A program made the translations under genes and the position numbers. Below the pieces are notes generated by a model that made no database searches, was not told the origin of the DNA, and worked only from the letters and a program-made list of their open reading frames with translations. This document shows, in pieces, positions 18,507-35,465 of a DNA stretch of 54,181 bases (position 1 is the stretch's first letter; each line of letters begins with the position of its first letter). Source of the stretch: Candidatus Heimdallarchaeota archaeon. GTDB lineage: Archaea > Asgardarchaeota > Heimdallarchaeia > Heimdallarchaeales > JAJRWK01. The stretch covers positions 1 to 54,181 of the forward strand of contig JAMOVR010000080.1 of assembly GCA_027061945.1 (NCBI GenBank), written 5' to 3'.

Positions 18507-20510
18507 TTAGTCCCTATAGATTGTTTTACCCATAGAATCATCCGCCTCATAACCTTTTAAGGAGTTGATCTTTTCTTTTGTGCTTGGTTCCTTAAGAAAT
18601 TCTATGAACTCTTTTAACGGTTTTTTATCATAACGGTCTTTACGGACTACGAAGTCATAATGCTCTTTTGTTATAGGTATGAAGTCTAAATCATAAATAT
18701 CTGCAACATACCGTAGCCCGATTCCTGCGTCAGCCATCCCTTGTTTTATCCTGGCAGCAACAGCCGTATGGGACTTAGCGCTTATTCTGTATCCACTTAT
18801 TTTTTGTTTTAATTTTGAGGGTTGAACACCTCTTTTCTTCGCAAGCTCTTTTAATAAATGGTCAAACAAAATTCTTGTCCCTGAACCCTCATTTCTGTTG
18901 ACAAAACGGATATCTTTATCGACTAAGTCTTCTATGCTTTTAATTCCTAATGGATTCCCTTTAGCAGTTATTATTCCTTGTTCTCTGGAATATCCTCTAA
19001 TCAAAAGTAATGAATTGTCTGGATCTACTTGTTTAAGGGAATTAATATTATACGTTCCCGTTTTTGGATCCAATAAATGCATTCCAGCGATGTCTGATTC
19101 TCCTCTCCTCACAGCAGACAAGCTACCTGTAGATGCCAAGACAATGTAGTTTATTGAGGACTTGTATTGAGGTTTTTGTCTTTCGAATTCTCGGAGTAAG
19201 TCTTCAAGACCGAGACAACTACTGGCGGTCATACTTACTGGTGGTATCTGGTCTTCAGAAATGAATAAATACACTTTGATATCTGTGCCAGGCTCTAAGA
19301 AGTCCACATTTTCAGGTATTCTTGCATAACCCATTGCTCTAGTGAGGGTAGTTATCGCTCCAGAGCCTCCCGGTATAGGATATGCTAAAAGATTACCGTT
19401 AAGATCTGGTGTTATCCCAAGCAGTAAGAATTGTTCTCTCCCAGGAGGCGTCCGTATTTTGCTCAAGATCTTGGCGTTAATTGTTGGCCTTGGAACTTCC
19501 ATTGGTCGGCCTACGATGCCTCTAATTAATGGTGCTACGAAAAGATCAAAAATCATGAGCCCGCTGGTGGGATACCCTGGAAGCCCAATCAATGGTTTTC
19601 CGTTGACCACACTTAATATGGTCGGTTTTCCGGGTTGAACTCTAATGCCATGAACTAAAATTCCGGGTTCTCCTAACTCATCAATGATTCTATACATTAA
19701 ATCTCCAGTTCCTGCGGATGTACCACCAGAAACAGTAACTAAATCTGTCTCTAAAAGTGCTTTTAGCAGTATTTTCTTTAATTGTACTTCTTCATCTCTG
19801 ACAATCCCGTATTGAACTGGGATTCCTCCCGCAAGCTTAATTGCTTCACTAATAGACCATTTGTTTATATCATAGATCTTTCCTGGTGCTAATGGTTTTC
19901 CTTGTTCTTCTAACTCATTTCCTGTGCTTATTACTGCTATTCTTGGTTTTTTATAGACTCTTACTTTCGTTATTCCAGTAGCAGCCATGACTGATATTTC
20001 TCGGTGGGTGATCAAAGAACCTTTCTTGACAATTGTCTCTCCATACATAATGTCTGCTCCCGCACTCATTATGTTTTCTCCGGGGGCAACAGGACGGAGA
20101 ATAAATACTTTGTTATCTTTTATGTATGTATCTTCTACCATTACTACTGCATCAGCACCAAGAGGGACTGGTGCCCCCGTACTTATATCTGCAGCTTGTC
20201 CATGACCAATTTCGCCCTTAAACCAGCTTCCTGCAGGAATATAACCAATTATGTCTAATTCTACTGGTTCTTCTTCCATCGCGGGGAAAGTATCTTCTGC
20301 TTTCACTGCGAAACCATCAACCGAAGAACGATCAAAGGGTGGGACGTCAACTAAGCTAGTGATGTCTTCCGCTGCTACGTAGCCTTCAGCATCTTCTAAG
20401 GGAATTTCTACCATCTTCTGGATGCCCTTAATTGGAACGTTATTTATAAAAACATTCCATGCATCATTCACACTCATCAGTCTTTTGAAAATTTTTCTCA
20501 ATTTTTTCAC
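18507..20510 (-). CDS. moeA: MoeA-like molybdenum/tungsten insertase fused to a binding-protein domain
   Basis: This is a 667-residue fusion. Residues 1 to about 415 are MoeA, which inserts molybdate or tungstate into adenylylated molybdopterin. Conserved stretches include PPFDRSSVDGFA, the STGAPVPLGADAVV loop, VSGGTSAGTGD and GLPGYPTSG. Residues about 435-650 are a PBP-like domain of the type also found in molybdate-sensing ModE/LysR proteins, with SSCLGLEDLL, ASTGSLSAVRRGESDIAG and NRNEGSGTR. This fusion is widespread in archaea; the C-terminal domain probably binds a ligand related to the cofactor. It starts with GTG three bases after the upstream MoeA stop, with aaggg just before it, so the two genes form one operon. 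Confidence 0.93.
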   Translation of the reverse strand: MKKLRKIFKRLMSVNDAWNVFINNVPIKGIQKMVEIPLEDAEGYVAAEDITSLVDVPPFDRSSVDGFAVKAEDTFPAMEEEPVELDIIGYIPAGSWFKGEIGHGQAADISTGAPVPLGADAVVMVEDTYIKDNKVFILRPVAPGENIMSAGADIMYGETIVKKGSLITHREISVMAATGITKVRVYKKPRIAVISTGNELEEQGKPLAPGKIYDINKWSISEAIKLAGGIPVQYGIVRDEEVQLKKILLKALLETDLVTVSGGTSAGTGDLMYRIIDELGEPGILVHGIRVQPGKPTILSVVNGKPLIGLPGYPTSGLMIFDLFVAPLIRGIVGRPMEVPRPTINAKILSKIRTPPGREQFLLLGITPDLNGNLLAYPIPGGSGAITTLTRAMGYARIPENVDFLEPGTDIKVYLFISEDQIPPVSMTASSCLGLEDLLREFERQKPQYKSSINYIVLASTGSLSAVRRGESDIAGMHLLDPKTGTYNINSLKQVDPDNSLLLIRGYSREQGIITAKGNPLGIKSIEDLVDKDIRFVNRNEGSGTRILFDHLLKELAKKRGVQPSKLKQKISGYRISAKSHTAVAARIKQGMADAGIGLRYVADIYDLDFIPITKEHYDFVVRKDRYDKKPLKEFIEFLKEPSTKEKINSLKGYEADDSMGKTIYRD

Positions 20511-20513
20511 CCC

Positions 20514-21854
20514 TTAATCATTTTGTCCGTTGTTTATTTTTGTTCCTCGTATCATTTTTTGTTCTTTGAAGTATCTTACCAGCGTAATTTCCACTTCAGC
20601 ACCTTGGTCATATCCTTCAATTTCTTCAGGAATTATCAAAAGTCCGTCTGCTTTTGTCAGAGAAGATAAAATGCCTGCGCCACGACGAGTAATCGTCTGG
20701 GCAACAAGCGTATCATTTTCTGTTTTTAGTTTTACTCTTACAAAATCTCGGATCCCTGGCTTAGAAGAGACTTTTTGTTCTAATATTGCTTTTACTTTTT
20801 CTCGGGGACGATAATCAAAATTTTCTCCACTTAATAACTGTATTAATGGATACCCAAATAATTCGTAATTCAAAAAGGCGGCTACCGGGTAACCTGGGAA
20901 CAAAATCACGGGTTTTTCTTTAATCACCGCTAATGCTACTGGTTTCCCAGGACCAATTGCAACTCCATGAACTAATATGCCTGGGTTTCCTATCTCATCA
21001 ATTACTTGGGGAAGAAAATCTTTAGGTCCTACGCTTGTTCCTCCAGTAATAAATACAGCATCATTCTTTTCTATTGCATCTTGAACTTTGGAAATGAGTA
21101 CGTTTTTTTCATCTCCCACAATTCCTAAGTCTATTGGTTCCCCATTATCTTCTTTAATCATTGACATGAGCATAATCCGATTACTATCAATAATCTTTGC
21201 TGGAGAGAGCTGATCTAAGTCCTCGACTAACTCATCTCCTGTCGTCATAACACCGATATTCGGTTTTTTGTAGACTTTTACTTTTTTCACACCTATTGAT
21301 TTTAACAAGGCCAAATCTACTGGTCGCAGTCTCGTGCCTCTTTGTAGCACAACATCCCCTTTTTTAACATCTTCTCCTTGCTTTGCAAGGTTTTTCGCGG
21401 GAGTAACCGCCTTTTTAATTTCTATTACTCTTTCACTCACTAACTCGGTGTCTTCAATCATTACTACGGCATCTGCTCCTGGGGGAACAGGAGCACCAGT
21501 CGTGATTTTAATAGCAGTTCCTTCTTCAACAGGGGTTTTTGGTTCGTCTCCTATGAATACTTCATCAATCACTGTTAAAGTAATTGGGTTGAAAGGCGTT
21601 GCTCCAAAAGTGTCTTGTGCTCGGACAGCATATCCGTCTACTGCAGACCTGGGAAATGGTGGCACATCGATAGGGGAAACGATGTCTTCTGCTAACACCA
21701 TGTTTACAAGGCTAATATCCAGATCTCTTTCCACGATCTTCAAAAGCTTTTCCTTGGAAAAAGCGTTAATAAAAATATTCCACGCATCTTCAACTTTTTC
21801 AAGCTTCATAAAGCCGCGGTCTCTTACGTCAAACTTTTTAGGATTAGCAACCAT
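20514..21854 (-). CDS. moeA: MoeA, molybdopterin molybdenum/tungsten insertase
   Basis: This is a stand-alone MoeA of about 446 residues. It carries PPFPRSAVDGYAVR near the N-terminus, TTGAPVPPGADAVVM, then VFITGGTSVGPKD and FPGYPVAAF of the MoaB-like catalytic domain, and a C-terminal beta-barrel domain. Together with the following fusion protein it forms the usual archaeal pair; one is thought to serve molybdenum and the other tungsten, but which is which cannot be read here. I chose ATG at 21854, whose upstream ggtgtg resembles a ribosome site. The longest frame would add 20 residues that are not family-like. Confidence 0.93.
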   Translation of the reverse strand: MVANPKKFDVRDRGFMKLEKVEDAWNIFINAFSKEKLLKIVERDLDISLVNMVLAEDIVSPIDVPPFPRSAVDGYAVRAQDTFGATPFNPITLTVIDEVFIGDEPKTPVEEGTAIKITTGAPVPPGADAVVMIEDTELVSERVIEIKKAVTPAKNLAKQGEDVKKGDVVLQRGTRLRPVDLALLKSIGVKKVKVYKKPNIGVMTTGDELVEDLDQLSPAKIIDSNRIMLMSMIKEDNGEPIDLGIVGDEKNVLISKVQDAIEKNDAVFITGGTSVGPKDFLPQVIDEIGNPGILVHGVAIGPGKPVALAVIKEKPVILFPGYPVAAFLNYELFGYPLIQLLSGENFDYRPREKVKAILEQKVSSKPGIRDFVRVKLKTENDTLVAQTITRRGAGILSSLTKADGLLIIPEEIEGYDQGAEVEITLVRYFKEQKMIRGTKINNGQND

Positions 21855-21942
21855 CACACCAATATCTGGGAGTATACAAAATACTTTTTTTGTTAACCCA
21901 AAAGTTAAAAACATTTTTTATTTGGGGAATGTCATGTGTTCT

Positions 21943-26861: not shown

Positions 26862-27150
26862 TCTAATCGATCTAATTACTTTGATAATTTCAAGACAAAA
26901 CAAAGCTTTCTTGTCTGCCTGTCTCTTACTTTTAGTATATGGGGTGCTAAATCTTTTTTTAAAGCATTTTTTTGAAATAATGACCAAAATTCATTTTTTA
27001 GTATAACACACCGTCCTAAATGGGATTTAATCTTTTCACCAATTCTAAGAGTTTATAGATATTCAACAACATATTAGTCATTAGAACAAACACGTTGGGT
27101 TTCTAATTTAATTAACAAAATCATTGTTAGAGACCCTTCGGGTGATTAAA

Positions 27151-28866
27151 ATGAAAAAATCATCAATAATAATGAGCATATCAATTATTCTACTTCTTAG
27201 TGGAAGCATATTATTGCAGGGTAAAGTTCTACCCGTAGTTGCTCAGGACACAAATGTTAAAATTGAGTCAGGTATGACAGTTATTTACGATATTAACCGT
27301 CTAAATTATAGCAAAGAGCTATTAAATCAATTTTTATCAGCTGCAAATATTTCTATTGTTCCTAAGTCTTCCTTGGCAGGTTCTGAATTGTATGTGAAAA
27401 TATTAAACGTTCATAAAGAAGCGATACCTGTTACGGATTTTGCCTCTCAACAAGTAGTAACTACGGATGGTGTAGTGGTCGATATTGAGATGGGCTTGAT
27501 TGTCAGCGAAGACACTACTTTCGAAATAAATGGTACTGATTTTGTTATTCCTAAAGGCACTGGTTTTAACATTCCGTTTGTGTTTGGAACAGTAACTGAC
27601 TTTATTATTCCTAGTGGAAACAGCACTTTATTGCCTTTACCCCTTGTCCTTTCTCAAGACTGGCTATCCCATGAATCAACTTTGAGTTTATTTAGCGATT
27701 ACGTGGATATTTCAAATACAAATGATTACTTCAATGTTTCAATTGCTCTTGATAACTCACAAATCATAAACATGAAAATAAATGGTGATATTTCGTGGAG
27801 GAAATCTGATGGTCTATTATTAAAACTAGATCTCACTGCTTATAACATGACTAATAACGAGTTGATCTTAGACTTATCTATTAATATGAAAAGCACCGAA
27901 CGTCTTACTACTGGCGTTAAGACCGGTGATTACTACTCTTTAGTTCTAAACAAGACTACCGCGGACTCCACAATCAGCGACAAGACAATTCAGCAATTAT
28001 ACGACCAATTAGTAGGAAATCTTTCACAAGCAGAAGGCTCTGCCGTATTAGCCTTTAAAGTAGAATCGGTTGATGGTCTATACTATGAGATCCGTCCATT
28101 AACACTAAACGTAACAACTGGTGAATTAGTTGAAGGAAATAGTACTTGGTTATCTTCCTTCGGAAAGTATCCACAAGGATTGACACTGAACGCAGCGACT
28201 TTACTTCTAAATAATAATGCTTCTTTAGACCCAAATACACCCATAAGAGACCAAGTAATATTAGGCCCCTTTGCGACACCAGATTGGGACATATACAAAA
28301 CATGGGATGCGTCATCATCATTAATGCTTCAACCAATAGTAGATCAATTAATGAGCTTTTTACAACGATCTGGCTTTGCTATTAACCTTGGAAACATTAC
28401 TCTTGGCGCTCCTAAATCACTTTCACTGTCCACAAGTGGCGGTAGCCAATTAAACTCTACTCATTATACTTCGAGTACTGAATTCGTAGTGACTCAGGAT
28501 CTTACAAGTACTAACTTTACACAAACAATTGGTAGTTATAACGTAACTCCAACAACCAAAATTCTTCTCCAAACTGGTGTATCAATGGATTTGGCATATG
28601 CGCTGGGAGACACACCATATCTCGAGACTGTTAAACTACAGACCTCTTTTAGTTTGGTGTTATCAACAGAAGTAAATGGCATAAAAATTAATGCTACTAT
28701 CGCTCAAATAACCATAACTAATTTAATGAAAGGTCACTATGTTCCTGCTACTGAGACCATTGGTATTGAAAATGAAACTAAAGTACTATTGGGCTTGCTT
28801 GGGATCTTAGCCGGTATATCTGGTATAGGCGCTGGAATTGTTGTATTATTGCGTCGAGGAGCATAA
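27151..28866 (+). CDS. large secreted surface protein with C-terminal anchor
   Basis: 571 residues from the ATG at 27151, which has GGTGAT seven bases upstream; the longer frame from a TTG at 27124 is unlikely. It has an N-terminal signal peptide (KKSS then a hydrophobic run, likely cut after VVAQ) and a C-terminal membrane helix (LLGLLGILAGISGIGAGIVVLL) ending in RRGA. The body is rich in Asn, Thr and Ser with many N-glycosylation sites (NxT/S), and beta-strand-like. A stretch with WRKSDGLLLKLDLTAYN recalls a repeat type seen in Asgard cell-surface proteins annotated as 'choice-of-anchor', but I am not certain. Function unknown; probably part of the cell envelope. Confidence 0.8.
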   Translation: MKKSSIIMSISIILLLSGSILLQGKVLPVVAQDTNVKIESGMTVIYDINRLNYSKELLNQFLSAANISIVPKSSLAGSELYVKILNVHKEAIPVTDFASQQVVTTDGVVVDIEMGLIVSEDTTFEINGTDFVIPKGTGFNIPFVFGTVTDFIIPSGNSTLLPLPLVLSQDWLSHESTLSLFSDYVDISNTNDYFNVSIALDNSQIINMKINGDISWRKSDGLLLKLDLTAYNMTNNELILDLSINMKSTERLTTGVKTGDYYSLVLNKTTADSTISDKTIQQLYDQLVGNLSQAEGSAVLAFKVESVDGLYYEIRPLTLNVTTGELVEGNSTWLSSFGKYPQGLTLNAATLLLNNNASLDPNTPIRDQVILGPFATPDWDIYKTWDASSSLMLQPIVDQLMSFLQRSGFAINLGNITLGAPKSLSLSTSGGSQLNSTHYTSSTEFVVTQDLTSTNFTQTIGSYNVTPTTKILLQTGVSMDLAYALGDTPYLETVKLQTSFSLVLSTEVNGIKINATIAQITITNLMKGHYVPATETIGIENETKVLLGLLGILAGISGIGAGIVVLLRRGA

Positions 28867-29012: not shown

Positions 29013-30266
29013 TCATTCTTGTAACTGCTTGGTTCTCTTGCTTTCTAATCCCCCTGGAATTGATTTTAAAGGATAAATCTGGTAAAAATACGGAAGGTCA
29101 AATACATGCTCTGCTAATTCAAATTTCGCTACTTGCTTCATAATTGGTGTTTTTCTTCGGTACGTTATTCTTTCTCTAATACTTCTCATATTTGGAACAC
29201 TAACAGTTCCTGTATTCGCAAAATTAATAGTAATCTTTTCAATTCCTTCTTTATTTAGACCGATCTGAATTTTGTGTATCTTATCTTTAAACTCATAACC
29301 TGCTCCGTGAGGAACAATATTTAAGTTCCTTACATATTTTTTGTCTATTATCATCTCTTGCTCTGTAAATGTTTTTAAAAATACTTCTGAGGCTGGAGAA
29401 ATATTTCTCTTTCCTTTTAACAATGCCACTCCCTCTTCGGGGTTAAATGCTACAGGCATTAAGTCTTGAATAATTTTTTGTACTCCAAGTCGATGATTTT
29501 TCCCCTCATAAAGTAGTCCTTGATGTGTAAGAGAACAAATTATCCCATATTCTCCCTCATTAAAAATTTCTGATAGATATGCTTCACGATTTTTTGCGTT
29601 TCCCTTGTCTGCATAGTCAAAAAATTCTAAGTACTCTTTTTTTGCCTCGTCTGTTAAAACAGTGACTTTTCCGTGTGGTGTCTGTATCTCTTCAAATCCT
29701 GGGGTGCTCTGGAGCCAAGAAACATCATATAGTTTTGCTCCTCCAACATGCCCACTACAATGAACTAGCACATATCTTTCCCCAGTATCTTCACCGCTTA
29801 AAGGATCTTTAGCGTAGTATGCTCCTGCAAAATGGTTTCCCGTTGAAAGTTGTACATCTTGATTTAGTCTTTTTCGTGCTTGTACTAATATCTGTTCAAT
29901 CTGCTCATCAGTAAGATCTGGACTAATTTTGGCTACTGTATATCCACAGCCATTAGGCATGGCATTATGCAAAAACAAGTATCCATCGTAGTCTGCGATC
30001 ATTAACCCGCCGTAACTAAACCCTCTTTTTGTCCTGATCCTATTCATGCTGAACGTGCCATCTGGAGCAAAAATGACTGCGTATTTTCCGATGTCTAACC
30101 CCATAATATCGATTGCAAAAAGAAGCTTAGCACTGCCTACTCTCATTATCGCTTCAGACATGGCTGAGGCGCGGTCACCCGCAGCCATCGAAGCGTGGTG
30201 CAAAGCGGCTTCTTCAAGCCACTTTTCAAACTCTGGGCTAACGCCCACATACCTTACTTCCGGCAT
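29013..30266 (-). CDS. divergent RtcB-like protein
   Basis: This 417-residue protein follows the RNA ligase RtcB outline in order. C107 lies in NGCGY (RtcB: DIGCGM). N144-H145 lie in GNHF, the metal/GTP motif. H169 lies in YVLVHCSG (RtcB: IHSGSRG), with a downstream FFDYADKGNAKNRE helix like RtcB 'A.YAxxNR'. H248 lies in SLTHQG (RtcB: HN), HRLGV replaces HRKGA, and H320 in PHGAG matches the guanylylated histidine of SHGAGR. So the five key Cys/His positions are kept, but the Asp before the Cys, the SRGLG loop and the SMGT loop are not. RtcB joins 2',3'-cyclic phosphate RNA to 5'-OH RNA; whether this relative ligates RNA is open. It has its own upstream gap of 240 bases. Confidence 0.65.
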   Translation of the reverse strand: MPEVRYVGVSPEFEKWLEEAALHHASMAAGDRASAMSEAIMRVGSAKLLFAIDIMGLDIGKYAVIFAPDGTFSMNRIRTKRGFSYGGLMIADYDGYLFLHNAMPNGCGYTVAKISPDLTDEQIEQILVQARKRLNQDVQLSTGNHFAGAYYAKDPLSGEDTGERYVLVHCSGHVGGAKLYDVSWLQSTPGFEEIQTPHGKVTVLTDEAKKEYLEFFDYADKGNAKNREAYLSEIFNEGEYGIICSLTHQGLLYEGKNHRLGVQKIIQDLMPVAFNPEEGVALLKGKRNISPASEVFLKTFTEQEMIIDKKYVRNLNIVPHGAGYEFKDKIHKIQIGLNKEGIEKITINFANTGTVSVPNMRSIRERITYRRKTPIMKQVAKFELAEHVFDLPYFYQIYPLKSIPGGLESKRTKQLQE

Positions 30267-30506: not shown

Positions 30507-31997
30507 TTACCAAGGCATTTCTCCTGTTAAAAATGCTTTTACTTGAAGATTATTGGTATTAAATACTTCTTCTAGCCCCCCGTTAACTGCGATCTTTCCA
30601 TTAATCAGGACAGTAAGCGTATCTGCGATTCTTTTTGCTTGAAGAAGATTGTGTGTTGTAATTATTATTATTAGTCCTTTTTTCTTCATTTCGATCAATA
30701 TTTTCTCAAATATAGCTATAGCCGTGGGGTCAAGATCTGCTGTAGGTTCGTCTAACAACAAAATTTTTGGATGAAGCAATAATAACCGAGCAAAAGCAAC
30801 TCTCCTTTTTTCTCCTCCTGAAAGGACACTGCTTTGTTTGTCAAGTAATTCGTTTATCATTAATAAGGACGACACTATTTTCAAGTCTTCTTTGTTTTTA
30901 GCAGTTATTTTTAGGTTGTCAATAGTCTTTCCTTTAAACAAGTAAGGTGTCTGATGGAGAAATACTGGTAACTCTTGTGTATCTCCTTCTATTATTATCT
31001 TCCCCGTGAAGTCTTTTTCTAATCCTGCAATTATTCTTAATAAAGTTGTTTTTCCCACTCCATTTGGCCCAACAATCACATGGATTTTTCCATGATCAAA
31101 CTCTAAAGATATTGTTTTCAATACCTCTTTATCACCATACTTCTTAGTTATTTGTTTAGCAATAAGCGTTAATTTCTGGGATTTATTAGGATATAGCTTG
31201 TTAATTAGTGATGAGATATCTTGGGGTTTCTCTTTTTCATTATCTATAATTATCCGATTTTTTTTCCGCCCAAAAGCACTGACAATACTGTCTGAAAAGA
31301 AGGTCATCAAATATGGAGACTGCAGTACCTGCAAAATAATATTAACTAAGAATGAGATGGTCAATAATATTATACCAAGTGCTATTGCAAATTCTGGGCG
31401 TCCTTTAGATACTTCTAGCACTGCTGCAGTCGTTAGTGTTCTAGTATACCAACGAATATTGCCCCCCACAATAAGAATTGCTCCTACCTCACTAATAGCG
31501 CGGCCAAAAGCGATAACTATTCCAGTAATAAGAGTGGTCTTTGTTTCTTTAAGTAATGCCATGATCTCTTTTATTCCTTCAATTCTCAATGTGATTAATG
31601 TCTCATAAAATGTTTCAGGCAGAGAATGAACTGCTTGGATTGAAATGCTTGTAACAATAGGCAAAGCTAACAAGAACTGGGCTAAAAACATTGCTTGAGG
31701 TGTATAAATAAGTCCTAATGCCCCTAATGGACCATTACGACTAAGCAATATGTATAGAAATACACCCATTACAACCGGTGGAAAACCGGTAAATGTATTT
31801 ATTATGGATACCAATATCTTTTTTCCGGGAAAAGAATAATATCCAATCCCTAAACCAAATAATATTCCGATAATTCCAGCCATTATTGTTGCGGAAAAAG
31901 ACAGTTTAAAAGAAAACTTAGTGATTAGAATTATTTCTCGGTCTCGAGAAAGAATAAGTTGTATCGCGATGATTAAGCCTTCTAAAAGCCTTGACAT
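30507..31997 (-). CDS. tupBC: fused permease-ATPase of a tungstate ABC importer (TupB-TupC)
   Basis: This single chain of 496 residues holds both membrane and ATPase subunits. Residues 1 to about 235 are a TupB-like permease with five or six helices and the coupling motif AISEVGAILIVGGNIRW. Residues about 275-496 are an ABC ATPase with Walker A at 310-317 (GPNGVGKT), the Q-loop near VFLHQTPYLF, signature LSGGEKRRVAFA, Walker B ILLLDEPTADLD and the TTHN switch. TupB and TupC are normally separate proteins of about 230 residues each. The reading frame is continuous through the charged linker at 243-275. It lies 198 bases downstream of the binding-protein gene, in the same direction. Tungstate rather than molybdate is inferred from TupB similarity and the partner. 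Confidence 0.88.
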   Translation of the reverse strand: MSRLLEGLIIAIQLILSRDREIILITKFSFKLSFSATIMAGIIGILFGLGIGYYSFPGKKILVSIINTFTGFPPVVMGVFLYILLSRNGPLGALGLIYTPQAMFLAQFLLALPIVTSISIQAVHSLPETFYETLITLRIEGIKEIMALLKETKTTLITGIVIAFGRAISEVGAILIVGGNIRWYTRTLTTAAVLEVSKGRPEFAIALGIILLTISFLVNIILQVLQSPYLMTFFSDSIVSAFGRKKNRIIIDNEKEKPQDISSLINKLYPNKSQKLTLIAKQITKKYGDKEVLKTISLEFDHGKIHVIVGPNGVGKTTLLRIIAGLEKDFTGKIIIEGDTQELPVFLHQTPYLFKGKTIDNLKITAKNKEDLKIVSSLLMINELLDKQSSVLSGGEKRRVAFARLLLLHPKILLLDEPTADLDPTAIAIFEKILIEMKKKGLIIIITTHNLLQAKRIADTLTVLINGKIAVNGGLEEVFNTNNLQVKAFLTGEMPW

Positions 31998-32195: not shown

Positions 32196-33140
32196 CTAAG
32201 TATCAAGACTTTCATGAACTGCAAGCCATGTTGCCCGGTCAACAAGTGTATATGCCTTGAGATTATAAGCCATAGTCAGTGTACTAGACATTCCTTGGCC
32301 AGATTCTATATACCATGAGTTCTCTTCAGCCCATGTTTCATTATCTGGATTAATAGTTACACCTGCAGTAGCCCAAATACTTAGTTCTTTAACATTAGTT
32401 CCCGAATTATCGCCCCTAGAAACAAACAACGATTTGGTCTGATATATTCTAAGAAAGGCTTCTGTAACATTCATGGCAGCACGTATGTTTGCAGGGTCAT
32501 TTCCTGGCCCAACAACAATAAAATCATTGTACATAAAATGAACACGATGTATTCCATGGCCTTCATTTACAAATTCTAATTCTAATGACTCCGCATGAAC
32601 CATTACTATGTCTGCGTTTCCTTCCCGTGCTGTGTCAAGAGCGGCGCCGGTGCCTACACCAATGTATTTCACAGTGACATTACTTATCTTTTCAAATAAA
32701 GGAATTAAGTAGTCAAGAAGTCCACTGTCTCTTGTACTGGTTGTGGTTGCTAACATAATACTTGTCGGTGGGGAAGCACCAATAGTAATATTATCCCAAA
32801 ACGCTTTTTCTTCTGGTGATAATGATTCTGGTCTGAAATCGGGATGAAATAATTGTGTGTCATACTTTCGATAATTTGCAATAGCTTGTTGTCCGTTGTC
32901 CGAGATTAGCCATTTCGCAAATTCTGCCGCCGCCCAAAAATGTACATTTGGATGTAACTCGGGGTTAACTAAGATTACACTGTAAGGATTGTAAAGAAGT
33001 GGGTCTCCTTCATACAATAGCTCATAAGTATATGGCTCTTGGTTGAACTTTAACCAAGTATATAACCCAAAACCGGAAGCTATTAGTAACACAATGATGC
33101 CTGTTGCGATTAGTATTGTTTTAGCGGATAATTCTTTCAT
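32196..33140 (-). CDS. tupA: tungstate-binding protein TupA, circularly permuted
   Basis: This 314-residue protein has an N-terminal membrane anchor (residues 8-30) and no lipobox. TupA motifs are all present, but in permuted order. Residues 38-101 (LLYEGDPLLYNPYSVI, VNPELHPNV, FAKWLISDNGQQAI, LFHPDF) are what normally closes TupA. Residues 129-314 (LATTTSTRDSGLLDYL, GVGTGAALD, YNDFIVVGP, SRGDNSGT, YIESGQGM, AYTLVDRATWLA) are what normally opens it. The old termini are joined by a linker at 102-128. It delivers tungstate to the fused permease-ATPase downstream. Tungstate would serve aldehyde:ferredoxin oxidoreductase-type enzymes, not seen in this window. Confidence 0.88.
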   Translation of the reverse strand: MKELSAKTILIATGIIVLLIASGFGLYTWLKFNQEPYTYELLYEGDPLLYNPYSVILVNPELHPNVHFWAAAEFAKWLISDNGQQAIANYRKYDTQLFHPDFRPESLSPEEKAFWDNITIGASPPTSIMLATTTSTRDSGLLDYLIPLFEKISNVTVKYIGVGTGAALDTAREGNADIVMVHAESLELEFVNEGHGIHRVHFMYNDFIVVGPGNDPANIRAAMNVTEAFLRIYQTKSLFVSRGDNSGTNVKELSIWATAGVTINPDNETWAEENSWYIESGQGMSSTLTMAYNLKAYTLVDRATWLAVHESLDT

Positions 33141-33241: not shown

Positions 33242-33970
33242 TCATCGCTTGTTTACTTCATTAATGAAGTTCAATGCAGTGCTAAAAATTATTTCTCGGT
33301 CATAGTCTCTTGTTAGCACATGGCTACTCCGATTTACTAAAAATAGATATTTATGTTTAGAACGTGTCTTCTCAAAGATCTCGTATGCATTTGACACCTC
33401 AACTAATTTGTCATACTTCGAATGTACAATAAGAATTGGTGCTTCTATTTTTTGCAATCGTTTTCTGACATGTTTTGCTAGATTATTGACGTCCTTAGCA
33501 TTATCACTATGAAAATACTCGTATGCACGATGTATGTCCCTAAACTGCGGATCATTGAGAGAAGTTTCGGGATCTCCTTGGTTTTTAACCCAAAAACCTA
33601 TTGGAAACATGGATAAAACGTCATGATACCATTTAAACACTCTAATGGGAGCAGCTAAGGTTATGCCTCCAAGAATCGTCTTATCATGAATTAATGAATA
33701 TAATGTCAAAAGTCCTCCTAATGAAAGACCTGCTACAAAAATACCTTTTTCAACGTTTTGTTTTGCTTCTTCAATTTCTTCCATTACTTTATTAGCCCAG
33801 TCTGACCATCTATACTCTCTTAATTCTTCTGGATTTTTAGCATGACCCGGAAGCAAAACATTTTTCCAGTATAACCCATTTTCTTCCATAAACTTCCCTA
33901 ACGGCTCCATTTCTTCGGGATATCCCGTAAATCCGTGGATCGTTACTATTCCGTAATCTAAAGTCTTCAT
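33242..33970 (-). CDS. alpha/beta hydrolase, carboxylesterase or monoacylglycerol lipase type
   Basis: This 242-residue protein has the alpha/beta hydrolase triad: nucleophile S83 in GLSLGG, D187 in HSKYDKLVE, and H217 in SSHVLTRD. The oxyanion region is IHGFTGYP near residue 12. The order and length match the Est30-like carboxylesterases, which cleave short acyl esters or monoglycerides. It has no signal peptide, so it is cytoplasmic. The divergent small membrane protein starts 150 bases upstream, and between them lies an 11-base tandem repeat. The true substrate cannot be told from sequence. Confidence 0.9.
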   Translation of the reverse strand: MKTLDYGIVTIHGFTGYPEEMEPLGKFMEENGLYWKNVLLPGHAKNPEELREYRWSDWANKVMEEIEEAKQNVEKGIFVAGLSLGGLLTLYSLIHDKTILGGITLAAPIRVFKWYHDVLSMFPIGFWVKNQGDPETSLNDPQFRDIHRAYEYFHSDNAKDVNNLAKHVRKRLQKIEAPILIVHSKYDKLVEVSNAYEIFEKTRSKHKYLFLVNRSSHVLTRDYDREIIFSTALNFINEVNKR

Positions 33971-34120: not shown

Positions 34121-34534
34121 GTGAGCGATGAAAGTAATAAAATAACTAATAACTCAACTAATTTTGTTATTAAGAGGGAGAATACTAGTTTTTCTCAAAA
34201 AATTGTTAGTATGAATAACAAATCATTAGCCAAATTTTCGGCACTGGCTTTTGTTTTAATCGCATTCGGTCTAATTGTTAATGAAATAGGGGTGCTACTA
34301 CAGCGTCTAGCTTTAACAGGGCCGGGGACCGATCCCAAAACAATATGGGGATATTGGCTGATCTTTTTTGCTAATCTTATTGCATTCATTGCAGCAGCTA
34401 TAGCAGGAATTGTTCTGGCAAATATTGCTTTTAAAGAAAATATTGACCAAAAATTAAAATATTTTGCATTAATTGCGCTGATCTTAGCTTTACTAGGACT
34501 TATCCCTGGAAACACAATTACTATTACACTATAA
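34121..34534 (+). CDS. small membrane protein, three helices
   Basis: This 137-residue protein begins with GTG. A polar N-terminal tail of about 40 residues (rich in Asn, Ser and Lys) precedes three membrane helices at about 43-65, 78-102 and 115-135. The loop between the first two holds the motif GPGTDPKTIWGYW. I recognise no family. The decayed IS605 right end begins one base after its stop codon. Because there is a ready frame, transmembrane structure and a promoter gap, I take it as a real gene of unknown function. Confidence 0.65.
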   Translation: MSDESNKITNNSTNFVIKRENTSFSQKIVSMNNKSLAKFSALAFVLIAFGLIVNEIGVLLQRLALTGPGTDPKTIWGYWLIFFANLIAFIAAAIAGIVLANIAFKENIDQKLKYFALIALILALLGLIPGNTITITL

Positions 34535-34535
34535 G

Positions 34536-35465
34536 TGAACTCCTCCTTGCTTTTGCGAGGGGCTTCCTGCTTCATCAAAAAGACTTGCCCCGAGACCACT
34601 TCCTTGTAAGAAATGGTTCGGAGTATTTCTTTAGAATTCTCTTCACAAGCGCTACGGGGCGTCCCAGCCATGTCTTGATTTTGAGGATGTTTAGGGAAGC
34701 GTTGTAGTCTCTGTCTGCTTCCCAGCCACAAAACACACATCTGAATACTCTGTCTTTTAGGCTTATTTTTGTTTTTGTTTTCCTACCGCATCTGGCACAT
34801 GTCTGCGAGGTGTATTGTGGGGAGACTTTCACTACTGTCTTACCAGCCCAGTGCCTTCCGCCTTGTAGGACAGCATTCCTATGAATTCTCCCCATGAAGC
34901 GTCTAGGATGTGGCGGTGCAGGGTCTTGTTCTTTCCTTTCCTCACCAGTCCATTGATGTTCAAATTTTCTACATAAATCATATCATATCGTAGTTATCTG
35001 CGTAGTATTTTGATAGTTGTGTAGGAAGTCTTTTCCCTTTTCCGTTTGTTTTCCTGTGTATTTTTTTCTTCACGCCACCGATTTTAGAGAGAAATGCGGT
35101 TTTTTTCCACGTCTATTGAGAAACCGCTCTGATTGTAGTTCAAAGACTTGTATCTTCCCTTTTTCTTATACCTTAGCTTGCCTATTTTCTTACCGTTTTT
35201 CTTCAGGCTAGACAATGCTTTCACATTGCTCCATAACATAATTGATAGTTCACCATTTGCAATGCTTTGGAATACACCTTTTTTAATGCGGGTTTTTCTT
35301 CTTTTTTCAGCTTCACTATTAGTGCTTGGGTGTCTTTCTGGGTTATTTTTCTTCCTTCTTCCCTCGCCTTACTTATTTTTTTTAGGAATCGGTTGTATAG
35401 CCAGCGGGCTATTTCCAAGCTCTCCTCCACTCCACCTCTTCAGAAGGAAGAGAGCACCCCCATCG
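34536..35465 (-). pseudogene. tnpB: decayed IS605-type element with broken tnpB
   Basis: Read right to left. An N-terminal piece (35221-35430: EIARWLYNRFLKK, VNYQLCYGAM) is followed, in other frames, by the typical LWSNVKALSSLKKNGKKIG and KGRYKSLNYNQ region. After a gap comes IYVENLNINGLVRKGKN with HILDASWGEF (the RuvC-II glutamate region), and at 34575-34895 the C-terminal zinc finger (CARCGRKT, CVFCG) with RuvC-III 'DRDYNASLN'. The RuvC-I segment with the first aspartate appears to be deleted, and there are frameshifts. TnpB is an RNA-guided nuclease, so this copy is dead. The right end (34536-34680) with the GAAGCAGGAAGCCCCTC hairpin is well kept and could still give an omegaRNA-like transcript. 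Confidence 0.85.

Follow-up and report, generated by a model that had tools for sequence, protein, structure and literature searches.

Closest described systems

Natural circular permutations are rare. One precedent among ABC binding proteins is present in the open-access literature, TpMglB-2 (Tp0684) of Treponema pallidum, a naturally permuted protein with a type I fold that was named 'Type Ic' (PMC4990184). A permuted TupA, or any other permuted type II binding protein, was not found in these papers, in agreement with the original prediction that no such TupA had been described. The search was confined to open-access papers, and therefore the permutation presented here is only provisionally the first natural one described for TupA.

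The ordinary tungstate-binding protein TupA (NF041772) is represented by structures from D. alaskensis (5MY5), G. sulfurreducens (3LR1) and V. parahaemolyticus (3MUQ). In the D. alaskensis protein lobe A consists of A2-R76 and Y201-E251, the central strand is T77-P89, and lobe B is A91-Q200; the site residues are T9-T11, S12, H59, R118, T124 and D170 (PMC5517513).

The sequence analyzed here, termed the window, is a contig of 54,181 nt from a Candidatus Heimdallarchaeota archaeon (JAMOVR010000080.1). It carries an open reading frame that is supported as a TupA with circularly permuted blocks. All the TupA blocks, the TTTS and RGDNSGT motifs, the site residues, the bilobed fold and a tupBC neighbor are in common with ordinary TupA; the differences are that the blocks are swapped, that the old ends are joined, and that the termini and anchor are probably situated on lobe B. 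The locus also differs from TupABC in that permease and ATPase are fused, a feature that is found in an ordinary-order relative as well.

Similar to TpMglB-2, the window protein displays a natural permutation, a putative membrane tether and conserved binding residues. The two differ in that TpMglB-2 has the type I sugar-binding fold and its permutation adds a fourth crossover, (PMC4990184), whereas the crossovers of the window protein appear unchanged; these are separate events. Type Ic is characterized by a type I fold, three or more crossovers and sugar binding, and the window protein falls outside of it, as it is homologous to type II TupA only. WtpA and ModA share with the window protein a related bilobed fold and an oxyanion function (PMC5517513). 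Their similarity to it is much lower and their motif set is another one. To our knowledge no permutation has been described in WtpA or ModA.

A complete TupA in permuted order

Features of the permuted gene and of its downstream neighbor are in Table 1.

Table 1. Positions of the permuted tupA gene, its parts and the adjacent tupBC gene in the window
Feature	Position	Strand	Basis
Permuted tupA gene, 314 aa	32196..33140	-	ATG start, no internal stop; phmmer and profile matches
N-terminal membrane anchor (predicted), about residues 6-30, without a lipobox cysteine	33051..33125	-	Hydropathy; AlphaFold2 helix
Block that closes ordinary TupA, residues 39-117	32790..33026	-	Profile positions about 187-271, 79.7 bits; tail matched by the L004 and L005 C-termini
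Joining sequence from old C- to old N-terminus, about residues 118-128, ITIGASPPTSI	32757..32789	-	Without counterpart in the ends of ordinary TupA
Block that opens ordinary TupA, residues 129-314	32199..32756	-	Profile positions 1-184, 258.9 bits; PDB TupA matches
tupBC, permease (TupB) and ATPase (TupC) fused, 496 aa	30507..31997	-	NF041773 TupB at 2-225, ABC_tran at 293-420

The closest PDB sequences are the TupA proteins 3muq, 3lr1 and 5my5. In each, the large block of the window protein aligns with the start of the chain, and in the three alignments examined the small block (residues about 39-101) aligns with its end. In a phmmer comparison with 3muq, residues 127-313 match chain residues 6-183 (i-Evalue 2.5e-42) and residues 39-91 match chain residues 184-236 (i-Evalue 1.4e-10), thus in swapped order. 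The first block comprises the last strand of lobe B, the second crossover (NPYSVI) and the C-terminal part of lobe A, and it ends with the tail found at the C-terminus of ordinary TupA. The second block has the TTTS motif, H182, the first crossover strand (196-212), R242, T248 and D301.

TupA proteins of the phylum were collected, and an ordinary-order profile of 278 positions was built from 34 proteins (33 archaeal and one bacterial). The window protein matches this profile in two pieces, residues 128-312 at positions 1-184 (258.9 bits) and residues 28-117 at positions 176-271 (79.7 bits). With the blocks placed back in the usual order, an alignment that the original prediction had proposed as a check, it becomes one gap-free domain that covers positions 1-271 with 349 bits, and homology thus extends over the whole mature protein. 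With a profile devoid of close relatives the reordered protein scores 339 bits, as compared with 333-357 for ordinary relatives. At the cut site, TWLAVHESLDT is followed by YELLYE in the reordered alignment versus TWLFQKESLSNLKVHVT in the ordinary protein L004, and zero residues are lost. TupA is therefore complete in the window protein, with a short joint as the sole insertion. This bears out the original prediction of a circular permutation cut between segments that are adjacent in ordinary TupA. The closing block had been placed at residues 38-101; its swapped position holds, but its end is at about residue 117.

Family annotation shows the same break. Pfam PBP_like_2 covers residues 125-310 only, in the usual order, and NCBIfam NF041772 matches in two stretches with 205 bits, below its curated whole-protein cut-off of 400 bits. 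The low score arises because the permutation breaks the match in two, and concerns the automatic label rather than homology.

Predicted structure and site residues

The best of five AlphaFold2 models has a confident bilobed fold (pLDDT 88.5, pTM 0.79); its input alignment was shallow, at 5 rows, and pLDDT among the models spanned 53 to 88.5. Viral contigs, searched for relatives that might deepen this alignment, gave none. The best Foldseek hits of the model are the TupA structures 3lr1 (182 columns, rmsd 2.2), 3muq and 5my5 (191 columns, rmsd 2.9), and thus the model agrees with the type II fold of TupA. The matches are partial because the other block is out of reach of an alignment that follows the sequence order.

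Lobes were mapped through the 5my5 alignment, with 23 subtracted from the chain number. The cut would lie between D. alaskensis residues 182 and 188, inside lobe B and beside the second crossover. The central strand corresponds to window residues 200-212, within a predicted strand at 196-212, and Y201 corresponds to Y53. Judged from this mapping, both crossovers appear to be kept and lobe A would be one continuous stretch. Site residues T9-T11, S12, H59, R118, T124 and D170 correspond to T132-T134, S135, H182, R242, T248 and D301, and all are invariant in the three permuted proteins described below. The structure prediction, the coverage of the whole profile and the conserved site residues agree with what had been anticipated from the sequence, i.e., that all TupA motifs are present and that a fold with two crossovers permits permutation.

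The chain would have been opened in lobe B, in the loop that leads from its last helix to its last strand. With the opening at this place both crossovers would remain, but the termini, and with them the N-terminal anchor, are expected on lobe B and not on lobe A; on homology grounds both have probably moved from lobe A to lobe B.

Joint and membrane anchor

Residues 102-117 (RPESLSPEEKAFWDN...) are the tail in which TupA of the same class ordinarily ends. Ordinary same-class proteins end in LFFPYFDPTKLSPEERNFWGI (L004) and LFTPCFPDCANLTKEEANFWGVGSGK (L005), and the counterpart in the window is LFHPDFRPESLSPEEKAFWDN. Thus the new joining sequence is only about 10 residues (ITIGASPPTS), of which T119-I120-G121 are invariant in the three permuted proteins. 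The old termini are joined through the inherited C-terminal tail plus these approximately 10 residues. A linker of about 27 residues had been proposed; the joining of the old termini stands, but most of this length is inherited tail.

The putative anchor has a 19-residue hydropathy maximum of 2.36 at residues 8-26, and AlphaFold2 places a helix at 6-32 with low confidence. The membrane helix noted earlier before the new start is real, but it is no novelty, as ordinary TupA proteins of the phylum likewise carry an N-terminal membrane helix; only its attachment point is new. The helix replaces no lipoprotein signal. Membrane tethering as the force behind permutation, an idea raised for TpMglB-2, was considered and rejected: ordinary-order relatives have the helix anchor too, and tethering alone thus does not account for the permutation.

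Distribution and origin

The permuted order is also found in two other genomes of the genus, both separate public MAGs, whose proteins have 56-60% identity to that of the window. G002 (isolate Dive96_bin2.176, contig JAJRWK010000119.1, L052) has a complete permuted gene of 316 aa. In G001 (Candidatus Heimdallarchaeota archaeon S139_metabat2_scaf2bin.022, contig JALTMP010000187.1, L053) the 5′ end of the gene is cut by the contig end. In a survey of the phylum, 69 of 228 genomes show a TupA match: three are permuted, 59 are ordinary (both block matches on one contig, with the order read from the table by eye), six have the N-type block alone detected and one is split between contigs. Occurrence in related Asgard genomes, which had been suggested as a check, is thus confirmed, and the order is not that of ordinary TupA. 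A contig search with the alignment of the three proteins yielded hits in the two known MAGs and to a single bacterial TupA of ordinary order, and with its narrow peptide patterns no permuted TupA was seen outside the genus; a search with the window protein singly found no relative. In family f4 of the same order (G006 to G035), TupA was undetected among the genomes listed, and family f3 of the order has ordinary TupA. Family f4 may take up tungstate by another system.

Between G001 and G002, pN is 0.11 and pS 0.80 overall, and each of the two blocks, like the joining region, has a pN much lower than its pS; dS is saturated and therefore only pN and pS are reported. Purifying selection maintains all blocks.

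Every genome of the genus is a fragmented MAG and a complete genome was not found, a situation in which an assembly chimera or sequencing error might put fragments of two tupA genes together in an incorrect order. Order, junction spacing and the tupBC partner are nevertheless common to three separate MAGs, no other TupA that could supply the fragments was found in the genome, and all blocks are under selection. The same junction in separately assembled MAGs at 56-60% identity rules out misassembly, which the original prediction had named as a possible source of error, and the chance of such an artifact is negligible. A chimera of two different parents, with the C-type block of one TupA placed before the N-type block of another, would not represent the permutation of a single protein. 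Separate trees of the N-type and C-type blocks each unite the three permuted proteins (98/97 and 95/80). In the C-type tree they adjoin family f7, which belongs to the same class; the short length of the block makes this tree weakly resolved and leaves some room for a second parent. In the N-type tree their position is weakly resolved, and an AU test does not reject a grouping with f7 (p 0.40). Identity to L004 is 56% for the N-block and 54% for the C-block. With the three proteins forming one group for both blocks, f7 among the nearest for both, and blocks that tile one TupA exactly with none missing, a two-parent chimera is highly improbable. The simplest reading is a single permutation event in the ancestor of the genus.

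The permutation probably began with a tandem duplication of tupA in an ancestor shared by the whole genus, after which the outer blocks were lost. Fission and refusion of separate pieces would produce the same order, and the outer blocks of a duplicate have left no remnant; a search downstream for a remnant second C-type block found none. Duplication and trimming predict a tail-to-head junction of the old termini in which most of the C-terminal tail survives, as is found here, and also a short segment at both ends, which may be present. Residues 28-38 (TWLKFNQEPYT) resemble profile positions 176-186, as does the C-terminal TWLAVHESLDT. This similarity, noticed after the fact, gives 83.0 bits compared with at most 80.4 in 200 shuffles; it is present in the window protein only and absent from G002. 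The repeated TWL segment is a possible footprint of the duplication. Shuffling of pieces is therefore the less probable route, with a minor but appreciable chance, and duplication with trimming is preferred.

Transporter context and function

The next gene downstream of the permuted tupA is tupBC, and TupA is thus encoded with TupB and TupC as in ordinary systems. In G001 a fused tupBC begins about 16 bases after the permuted tupA, and beyond it are homologs of two proteins of the window, of 417 aa and 580 aa; the G002 contig breaks off just after tupBC has begun. The same fusion follows an ordinary tupA in G056. Fused tungstate permease-ATPase genes thus occur in the genus as well as in a relative from the class whose TupA has the ordinary order (tupBC of the window, L041 838-2340 and L043 3293-4975).

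Enzymes of the aldehyde ferredoxin oxidoreductase family are the usual users of tungsten, and the genome carries four AFOR_N genes above the cut-off. A second TupA was not found in the genome, whose assembly is 87% complete, so one could be missed. The adjacent tupBC, the four AFOR_N genes and the lack of a second TupA together make the permuted protein most likely the organism's tungstate receptor. It is very probably a naturally permuted TupA that serves a TupA-TupBC ABC importer as its membrane-tethered receptor for tungstate, and a preference for tungstate over molybdate is suggested by homology. Tungstate would be caught between the lobes, the closed protein would dock on the TupBC dimer, and the four enzymes of the aldehyde-ferredoxin-oxidoreductase type would receive the tungsten in their cofactor.

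Specificity is not readable from sequence, and the segment EGDPLLYNPYS is changed to ESDEELLRNTYS in G001 and G002, so the protein might be permuted but serve another oxyanion such as molybdate, or act as a membrane-bound sensor. Ordinary-order family f7 is also altered in this segment (NIYSAI, NLYSAI), every named site residue is kept, a TupB-type permease-ATPase adjoins the gene, and the genome has four tungsten-type oxidoreductase genes. Loss of the tungstate importer function is thus quite unlikely, and the role of tungstate receptor is retained as the preferred reading.

Other features of the contig

Two adjacent moeA genes are found on the same contig as the permuted tupA (window 18507-20510 and 20514-21914, both on the minus strand). 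The first displays a C-terminal PBP_like fusion (PF12727), which places a module of the oxyanion-binding type next to molybdenum/tungsten cofactor insertion. Three proteins without a Pfam match are encoded near tupA in the genus (window 27124-28866 (+), 29013-30266 (-) and 34121-34534 (+)); homologs of the first two are beside tupBC in G001, and a homolog of the third is near tupA in G002. A short open reading frame at 34575-34895 (-) adjoins the locus; it has a Cas12f1-like TNB zinc-binding domain (PF07282) and probably represents the C-terminal end left over from a TnpB gene of the IS200/IS605 type. A 23-nt direct repeat (87% identical; the exact core, AATTATTTCTCGGT, has 14 nt) stands on either side of the tupA region, at 31920-31942 and 33278-33300. 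Its copies are situated inside the ends of tupBC and of a hydrolase gene and may be due to chance; it was not found in the contigs of relatives.

Implications

Similar permuted cases may go missed, because order-dependent annotation (Pfam, NCBIfam) gives a partial match only. The event is sufficiently recent for its traces to be legible in ordinary relatives of the class and in the inherited tail, and thus the steps of the permutation can be reconstructed. Builders of biosensors engineer by hand binding proteins that are permuted so as to have their termini close to the hinge. A broader proposal should be considered tentative, i.e., that this is the first case known in nature of permutation among type II (TupA/ModA-like) binding proteins, and that a shift of the tether from lobe A to lobe B alters its presentation to and docking on the fused TupBC, with the pseudo-symmetry of the lobes allowing either one to be anchored; we regard it as possible but doubtful. 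In a genus of Heimdall-type Asgard archaea the receptor that catches tungstate is apparently held at the membrane by its other lobe, and the permuted TupA makes it possible to ask, in a natural system, if delivery to the transporter depends on which lobe bears the tether.
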